Positions 17,905 through 31,490 of a DNA stretch of 64,000 bases are shown piece by piece. The stretch is from NCBI GenBank assembly GCA_036480375.1, contig JAZGGI010000010.1, positions 1-64,000 of the forward strand, read 5' to 3'. How positions within the stretch are numbered: position 1 is the stretch's first letter; every line of letters begins with the position of its first letter. The notes under the pieces were generated by a model. The model saw only the letters and a program-made list of their open reading frames with translations. It did no database searches and was not told the origin of the DNA. The DNA is from Candidatus Zixiibacteriota bacterium (GTDB lineage: Bacteria; Zixibacteria; MSB-5A5; GN15; JAAZOE01). The position numbers were made by a program, and so were the translations under genes.

Positions 17905-18002
17905 CAGATAAACCGCGCGACAGCTGGAAACGGGCTTTTGCCCGAATCACCATCGATTTGATATGACCAAAAACGTTAATCTGAGGAAACAAACCCATTT
18001 TT
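17905..18002 (-). repeat. ~97-bp dispersed repeat, copy C (minus orientation)
   Basis: On the minus strand this reads AATGGGTTTGTTTCCTCAGA...TTAACG..., then TCATATCAA..CGATGGTGATTC, a hairpin CGGGC-AAAA-GCCCG, and GCTGTCGCGCGG. It is the same element as 28599-28699 and 28768-28866 with about 80% identity by eye, but the hairpin stem is different. It lies directly downstream of the minus-strand gene ending at 18037. Confidence 0.8.
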
Positions 18003-18036: not shown

Positions 18037-18642
18037 TCAATCTGCTTTGGATGTATCTTGGGGAGCGGGATTAACATCTGTATCGAAAACAAATGAATTT
18101 GCCAGTTTGTCAAATTCAGGCTTGTATAAATTAAACAATGTTTCTCCGCAGCTAAACGAGAGGTGTACAAGAAAGTTATTGCCAAAAAAAGCATATGAAT
18201 ATAGTACTGTACCTATGGGAAAATCGCTGGCTTGAATAATTGATTTAGATATTTTGCAATTATTCAAGGTGTCGTATATTGGCTCTTCGACTTTGATAGT
18301 CTCGAAAGATCTAAGTGTATCTTTTTGGTTTTTTGAGCTTAAAATTGTCATATCCAATCTAACGGGGATAATAGAATCAGTAATTCCGTAAGCTGTGGAG
18401 ATTATACAAATCGGTAGTTGGAAAATAGAATTAGATTTTAGCGCAAGGCTTAATTCTATTTCAGGCAAAACTCGCGTATTACTCGAATCTTCAGCCAGAG
18501 GTTCAATGCTCGTTTCAGTTATTGGTGTCCAATTATCGTCATATGTAATTATGAAGTGGCCTTTTTCTGAATGGTATTCAGTGGCATTAGAAATTGAAAA
18601 AATAATTGACAAGATCAAAAAACAGATTGCAAAGTATTTCAT
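18037..18642 (-). CDS. Exported protein of unknown function (PsbP/DUF1795-like pattern)
   Basis: I start at 18642 (MKYFAICFLILSIIFS), because GAGGAAAC directly before it is an excellent ribosome site and the upstream in-frame ATG at 18657 would place that site inside the coding region. The 201-residue product has a signal peptide ending near SNA. The mature N-terminus YHSEKGHFIITYDDNWTPI recalls the PsbP/DUF1795 group of small exported alpha-beta proteins, but the match is weak. Codon use is AT-rich compared with the core operons. It is isolated, with repeats downstream, so its function stays open. Confidence 0.65.
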   Translation of the reverse strand: MKYFAICFLILSIIFSISNATEYHSEKGHFIITYDDNWTPITETSIEPLAEDSSNTRVLPEIELSLALKSNSIFQLPICIISTAYGITDSIIPVRLDMTILSSKNQKDTLRSFETIKVEEPIYDTLNNCKISKSIIQASDFPIGTVLYSYAFFGNNFLVHLSFSCGETLFNLYKPEFDKLANSFVFDTDVNPAPQDTSKAD

Positions 18643-18694
18643 GTTTCCTCTTCGCATTATGATGTCAAAGTATAAAGGACAAAATTACTGTTTA

Positions 18695-28512: not shown

Positions 28513-28598
28513 ACAATCTTTCGTCTTTGACGCCATAAATACGGATTTCATGTGCTATGTGTCAACTATTAACGAGAAATGCAGGCAAAAGCTTCGGA

Positions 28599-28699
28599 AA
28601 ATGGGTTTGTTTCCTCAGATTAACGTTTTGAGTCATATCAACTCGATGGTGATTCCGACAGGCAAAAGGGGATGTCATCCCTTTTCGGCTGTCGCGCGG
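28599..28699 (+). repeat. ~100-bp dispersed repeat, copy A
   Basis: It starts AAATGGGTTTGTTTCCTCAG, continues through AGTCATATCAACTCGATGG, and ends in a long hairpin. CGACAG (28656-28661) pairs with CTGTCG (28689-28694), enclosing AAAAGGGGAT/ATCCCTTTT with loop GTC. Copy B begins 69 bases after copy A ends. Confidence 0.85.
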
Positions 28700-28767
28700 T
28701 CTATCTGGTTTTATTGCCAATAGATAAAAACATTTGGCAGGATTACTCCTTACAGTATTGATATAAA

Positions 28768-28866
28768 AAATGGGTTTGTTTCCTCAGATTAACGTTTTGA
28801 GTCATATCAACTCGGTGGTGATTCCGAAAGGCGAGGGGGATGTCATCCCTTTTTGGCTGTCGCGCA
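28768..28866 (+). repeat. ~100-bp dispersed repeat, copy B
   Basis: This copy is near-identical to copy A for the first ~60 bases (only one difference in the ACTCGRTGG region). The hairpin keeps GGGGGATGTCATCCC, but the outer stem is weakened (CGAAAG opposite CTGTCG). Confidence 0.85.
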
Positions 28867-29432
28867 GATGATCTGAACTTTTGTCAAGAAATTAGTCATT
28901 TATCTTATTCTACCTTAATGTTTTCTTTGTCTTTCCTGCGGGGATCGTTACGGGAATCCAGAGAAGTTATCCACAATTGCATTTCTGAAAAATCCTCATA
29001 TATGAATGTGTTCGTATGGGTTACAGCGAATTGGGTTCGTTTTGTCCTTTTTAGTACTTCGTAAATTCTATATCATCCACGTTGATCTCGCCCTGAATCC
29101 GCTATGTGAATTATTAGTCTTCATCCTATAAAATGGGGATGATTTCGGAAACAGTGGTGGATTTGATGGGTAATCGTGGATGCTCTTTGCGGGAACCCAC
29201 CGCAACAAGTTGCAGTGGGCCACCGATCCATCCAAAAAAATTCTATGCTTATTTTTCGGACGGGCTGGCGGTCAAGTCTGAAGACTTGAGGCACCTGGCA
29301 GATCCATTATATCTATTGTATCACAATGAGTTACAGGGTGATTAGCAACGTCAATTATCCATTCTTAGCACACCTGGACAGAGAAGAAAGCTGGATAATT
29401 TGCACTGCTCTATGACTTTATAAATTTTTAGT

Positions 29433-31121: not shown

Positions 31122-31490
31122 CCCACAGTCTTGCTGTGGGAAAATACGAGGATTGTCGCTACAAGGCATTTGGCTGGAGCCCGATGGGCTCCATCCCTAC
31201 GACTGGATTCCCGACTCGTTCTCCCGTCAAAAATGGGAAAACTCTCAGAGATGACAGGCAAAGGCTTTTTTTTTGGCTGTCGGGGATGTCATCCCTTTTC
31301 AGCTGTCGCGCAGTGTATCAAAAGTACGAGGAAACCACGACAACTCGAGAGTTGTCGCTACACATAGTTGGCAGGAGTCTGGGAATTATAAATTCCTCGA
31401 CGCTGCCATTCATCTAACTTATTAATGTCTTTAATTCTACTTGTCAATTTCTATAAAATTAATTAATTGGCGGCAATGGATTGTTATCAA
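31122..31490. repeat. Mosaic of hairpins and repeat fragments
   Basis: This gene-free DNA holds in order: hairpin CCCACAG-TCTTG-CTGTGGG (31122-31140); perfect hairpin GGAGCCC-GAT-GGGCTCC (31176-31192); and a copy of the GGATTCCCGACTCG palindromic repeat (31203-31255). Next come the 3' part of the ~100-bp repeat (GGGATGTCATCCC to GCTGTCGCGCA, 31282-31312) and a perfect 9-bp hairpin CGACAACTC/GAGTTGTCG (31338-31357). The rest, to 31490, is unremarkable. Confidence 0.8.

Follow-up and report, generated by a model that had tools for sequence, protein, structure and literature searches.

The window, by which we mean the whole stretch of 64,000 nucleotides analysed here, holds several copies of a short repeat whose hairpin changes its letters from copy to copy while its two arms still pair. 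What kind of element is this, and is its stem held by selection for structure? The initial annotation had proposed a unit of about 100 bp with a constant opening and end and a hairpin kept by selection, as in a mobilised or RNA-acting element.

Copies and modules

Copies A (28599-28699), B (28768-28866) and C (18002-17905, minus strand) are present as the initial annotation described. Copy A matches copy B at 94% identity over 98 bases (E 5e-37) and copy C at 79% identity (E 1e-19). The hairpins of A and C do differ, being GGGGAT-GTC-ATCCC in A and CGGGC-AAAA-GCCCG in C, and copy B carries the same hairpin as A. The proposed 3' fragment at 31282-31312 turned out instead to be part of a stand-alone pair of hairpin units. 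The repeat of about 100 bp exists, but the true unit is larger and modular, composed of a head, exchangeable hairpin units and conserved sequence past GCTGTCGCGC, and GCTGTCGCGC, which had been taken for the end of the element, instead closes each hairpin unit. The gap between genes at 28552-29432 contains, in order, H1-hairpin, H1-hairpin and L-H2-R, the last being a further element (28965-29176) directly past copy B (Table 1). The contrast between A and C comes from another hairpin module in A plus one compensated pair in C: copy A has a module of the GGGAT class and its CAGGC hairpin is without the 3' arm, and copy C has a CAGGC-class hairpin in which one A-U pair has become G-C.

Table 1. 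Modules of the repeat system located in the window
Feature	Position	Strand	Description
Head b (H1), copy A	28599..28656	+	AAATGGGTTTGTTTCCTCAGATTAACGTTTTGAGTCATATCAACTCGATGGTGATTCC; at least 68 genome copies, first 18 bases invariant
Hairpin unit, copy A	28657..28697	+	remnant GACAGGCAAAA, stem GGGGAT/ATCCC (28668-28681), T-run, CGGCTGTCGCGC
Head b (H1), copy B	28768..28826	+	
Hairpin unit, copy B	28827..28865	+	stem GGGGAT/ATCCC (28836-28849), TTTTT, GGCTGTCGCGC
L module of neighbouring head-a element	28965..29027	+	AGTTATCCACA..., sharp left edge; head a follows at about 61 nt in nearly all copies
Head a (H2)	29028..29060	+	GAATTGGGTTCGTTTTGTCCTTTTT; core conserved across the order
R module (right arm)	29135..29176	+	closes the composite
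Head b (H1), copy C	17945..18000	-	about 36 nt past the end of ORF 18037-18657 (minus)
Hairpin unit, copy C	17913..17944	-	CGGGC/GCCCG (17944-17931), one compensated pair vs CAGGC/GCCTG, then CAGCTGTCGCGC
Two head-less hairpin units	31254..31312	+	first (CAGGCAAAGGCTTTTT) with broken 3' arm; second GGGGAT/ATCCC

When the first 101 bases were used as query, 60 matches were found in the window's genome (3.59 Mb, 50 contigs), and a pattern covering both head types gave 119 exact matches there, against 0 for the reversed control. The exact head pattern had no match in the named genomes searched. The window's genome very probably belongs to a Zixiibacteriota bacterium, since its closest biotin carboxylase match (75% identity) and the majority of the hits that follow come from Candidatus Zixiibacteriota. 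Modules were counted in 664 kb of the same genome, namely the window, 20 stretches of 20 kb and the flanks of head copies. These contained at least 68 H1 heads (AAATGGGTTTGTTTCCTCAG..., the head of the initial annotation) and 32 H2 heads (GAATTGGGTTCGTTTTGTCC). None of the 68 H1 heads was within a predicted gene, the gene calls being those of a home-made gene finder that misses short genes. The full composite runs L (AGTTATCCACA), head a, hairpin units, head b, hairpin units or palindromes, and R. H2 lies about 61 bases 3' of L, which starts sharply with AGTTATCCACA, and between the heads and R there are hairpin units, CGTC-type palindromes (TGTCATTCCCGCGAAAGCGGGAATCCA), GTAG-type palindromes and others. 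In all 49 clusters with several modules, every module had the same strand and the arrangement was L-H2-(H1)n-R or H1-L-H2-R. Fixed flanking modules thus enclose a variable middle, L-H2-(hairpin-U-H1)n-R with 0-3 heads b, as in a BOX-type element. A head acting alone as a terminator was considered and rejected, since the orientation relative to genes (27:18) was not significant.

Three observations touch the backbone. In nearly every copy, L starts with TTATCCACA (28967-28975 in the window and about 30 others), which is identical to the DnaA-box consensus of E. coli and is a candidate DnaA-binding site. In the G000 clusters with |GC skew| above 0.05, 14 of 17 elements (14:3) were on the G-rich strand; a replication-strand bias was rejected as its cause, because this ratio comes from short flanks and is inseparable from gene strand. 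Contigs C1, C4, C22, C23, C33 and C49 of G000 end about 120 bases or less from a head. The repeats probably break the assembly at several sites, so that copies are possibly undercounted.

The hairpin is a separate unit, also found without the repeat of about 100 bp. It has a 5-bp stem, a purine-rich loop mostly of 3-4 bases, a T-run and the tag GGCTGTCGCG. Its end is the T-run followed by GGCTGTCG(CG) or GCTGTCG, and its classes are exchangeable and occur in tandem. In the window's own genome the stem classes are CAGGC/GCCTG, GGGAT/ATCCC and GTGGC/GCCAC, together with singletons that include CAGCC/GGCTG and the CGGGC/GCCCG of copy C. Diversity within the main class is about 0.05 in the stem compared with about 0.04 in the head and 0.40-0.57 in the loop. 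The stem types of this genome are mostly discrete, near-invariant modules that are swapped, not one drifting stem.

The hairpin unit and the head differ in range. With a covariance model, five genera of the window's family yielded 82, 100, 72, 14 and 11 hairpin units and a sixth genus yielded single hits; in 72 genomes that belong to the order but not to the family, the model gave isolated weak single hits only. The hairpin unit is thus restricted to the family, where a genome has as many as about 100 copies. The head core WTGGGTTYGTTTTG ranges more widely, with 0-50 copies per genome in one order and background elsewhere in the class. Turnover is supported, with head-core copies that range from 0 to 40 inside one genus. 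Two species of one genus (G015 and G024) have shared loci with the same head-to-R layout, and at the orthologous loci L236/L256 and L240/L268 one species is longer by an additional head unit (about 140 and 62 bases). This indicates that the elements remain in place and gain or lose units. No clean empty site was found among the orthologous loci compared, which differed by gain or loss of units, and a search for target-site duplications found none.

Pairing of the stem

The repeat system is real and large, and its hairpin covaries. Nine stem types over five genera all pair. In 22 chosen sequences, every one of 110 cells pairs, compared with 74.5% after the 3' letters were reassigned between copies, and four of the five stem pairs vary on both sides. 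The covariation score was 0.851, compared with 0.329 for shuffled sequences and at most 0.117 for slid controls. Since a hairpin finder had supplied most of the 22 sequences, a second test used 130 tails picked solely for their sequence, a T-run plus NGCTGTCGC/G. All five pairs were formed in 115 of these 130 tails and in 70 of 650 (11%) shuffled upstream stretches given the same freedom, kinship being uncorrected. Among 26 distinct arm pairs, a few of which are accidental, 91.5% of positions were paired as opposed to 63.6% after reassignment (maximum of 1000 shuffles, 73.8%), again uncorrected for kinship. The types seen in other genera are CCGGC and GCGGC (G002), GGGAC (G001) and GGGGC (G004), at loci detected by a model of which the stem is part.

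The proposal of a kept stem with changing letters thus agrees with the data, and the examination of further copies for a lack of base-pair covariation showed that covariation held across genera. Across genera the stems covary; within the window's genome the differences are mostly an exchange of discrete modules. As for the proposed cause, the covariation fits both selection for structure and template-switch repair of palindromes, which can yield it as well, so that selection is likely and not proven.

The paired changes could then be purely mutational, with template-switch repair perfecting palindromes and modules recombining between identical T-run/GGCTGTCG tags. We give this explanation a minor but appreciable chance of being right. 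The variation within the window's genome is mostly among a few discrete, near-invariant stems, which stand in tandem with identical tags between them, and copy A resembles a fusion in which one hairpin has lost its 3' arm. However, wobble pairs account for only about half of the one-sided stem changes and mismatches for the others, so that repair is incomplete, and the same-strand position of the units after genes suggests a function beyond mutation alone. For the first unit of each hairpin array, the nearest upstream gene was on the same strand in 52 cases and on the opposite strand in 23 (p = 0.001); within 60 nt of the upstream gene the ratio was 10:0 (p = 0.002). The units are thus enriched downstream of same-strand genes, as terminators would be.

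A stem followed by a T-run downstream of a same-strand gene is the usual look of a transcription terminator. In the hairpin units TTT precedes 33 of 37 exact GGCTGTCGCG tags, and in the 115 tails with perfect stems a G+C-rich stem is likewise followed by a T-run. From the stem, the T-run and the placement on the same strand, we infer that hairpin units terminate transcription at least in some places. Against this reading, the stems are just 5-6 bp long, and a conserved tag past the T-run is superfluous for a terminator.

Nature and spread of the elements

We consider it reasonably probable that the system is a modular, probably non-autonomous repeat of gene gaps, in which mobile terminator-like hairpins are carried in a BOX/NIME-like mosaic. 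The backbone (L, head a, head b and R) would be a long-established family found in one Zixiibacteriota order. A second repeat, which is specific to the window's family and consists of a 5-bp hairpin, a purine-rich loop, a T-run and GGCTGTCGCG, would have had its units set into this backbone and into other gene gaps, where they may stop transcription when the T-run strand is read. The copies would move as DNA, through an enzyme supplied in trans together with recombination between heads, and the stem would be held by selection for pairing, with palindrome repair helping or mimicking it. A mobilising enzyme was looked for and none was found. In a bolder version, which we regard as unlikely, the hairpin units form a mobile terminator family that keeps pairing over sequence: the tag and T-run would have spread across five genera while the stem was re-made, the units would serve as insertable stops for the host, and a library of modules would be shuffled inside the order-wide backbone.

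The initial annotation had suggested a RAYT-type transposase as the mobiliser. In that case the hairpin units would be REP-like ends moved on single strands by a Y1 (RAYT-type) enzyme. The units are strand-asymmetric and without inverted ends, and Y1_Tnp genes are present in 12 of the 13 genomes searched, with seven matches in the window's own. A hairpin unit was found within 450 bp of 6 of the 25 Y1 genes examined, against about 0.7 expected from a rough estimate based on unit density. However, none of the seven Y1 genes of the window's own genome has a hairpin unit within this distance, and some genomes have Y1 genes without the hairpin unit. Directly beside most RAYT genes lie other palindromes, such as GTAGGTCGAAACC...GGTTTCGAC, and the hairpin unit is bounded by a varying 5' sequence and by the T-run plus GGCTGTCG, not by GTAG/CGTC tags. 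RAYT as the direct mobiliser was rejected on account of these other repeats, and we hold the whole REP/RAYT explanation to be decidedly unlikely. Since repeat-rich gaps attract one another, no enzyme was assigned. An RNA-acting element was weighed in the same way. It is highly improbable that the composite works in trans as a regulatory or structural RNA, although every module is on one strand, the hairpin covaries and the head is highly conserved. There was no Rfam match at gathering thresholds, by which a known RNA family was rejected, the strand of the head relative to genes is mixed, and the copy number varies between 0 and 40 in one genus. Pairing between the left and right arms was slightly above that of shuffled sequences (-19.4 versus -15.5) and no better within copies than between them, so that a long RNA structure formed by these arms was rejected. 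The arms have at most a weak inverted repetition of the kind seen in the terminal inverted repeats of MITEs.

The mosaic that we favour has likenesses among known systems. SPRITE of Streptococcus pneumoniae is a rho-independent-terminator-like repeat with an 18-bp stem before a long U-rich tract, is concentrated near the 3' ends of genes and is considered to have been co-opted for termination (PMC3049150). The present units resemble it as dispersed hairpins followed by a T-rich tract near the 3' ends of genes, but differ in their 5-6 bp stem, short T-run, conserved GGCTGTCGCG tag, tandem arrangement and several stem types, and so fall short of SPRITE's own stem and U-rich tract. BOX of the same species (PMC3049150) also has flanking modules around a variable middle and lies in gene gaps mixed with other small repeats. 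Its modules are different, the hairpin units here also occur alone, and the phylum is another one; the likeness noted here is one of architecture. Neisserial intergenic mosaic elements with dRS3 (PMC3898611) likewise form intergenic arrays of repeat units and short palindromes of the ATTCCC...GGGAAT type, whereas the elements described here have modules on one strand, limited orders and terminator-like hairpins. REP/BIME elements are GTAG-/CGTC-tagged palindromes of gene gaps (PMC3733652), and GTAG-like and CGTC-like repeats adjoin our elements in the same genome, but the hairpin unit has a 5-bp stem and a T-run and is without a GTAG/CGTC tag. By analogy, the system would work as SPRITE-type units do, set in a mosaic resembling BOX, a likeness that does not by itself make it a member of any of these groups. 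The literature searched on Zixibacteria and repeats, with most subscription journals outside its coverage, held nothing on such repeats.

These small interspersed repeats of an uncultured phylum are dense and order-wide, and their hairpin stems covary across genera. They provide natural variants with which to ask whether function or palindrome repair maintains terminator-like repeats, and they show modular gene-gap repeats growing and shrinking by units at fixed loci.

Some observations lie beside this argument. The tag sequence TGGCTGTCGCG is shared with tRNA-Gly(GCC) at locus L323 (G000 C16:84228-84287), and the tRNA stretch with it shows little or no difference among six of the seven genomes of the window's family; a tRNA origin of the hairpin unit is possible on this resemblance. 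At locus L341 (G002 C55, about 900-1750), a RAYT-type gene lies between near-identical direct repeats of about 100 bp that include a hairpin unit, like a composite mobile unit. Near heads of G015 (L232-L251) there are other palindromes in which the frame is kept and the centre pair is changed: GGTCCACGGACC, GGGCCACGGCCC and GGACCACGGTCC.
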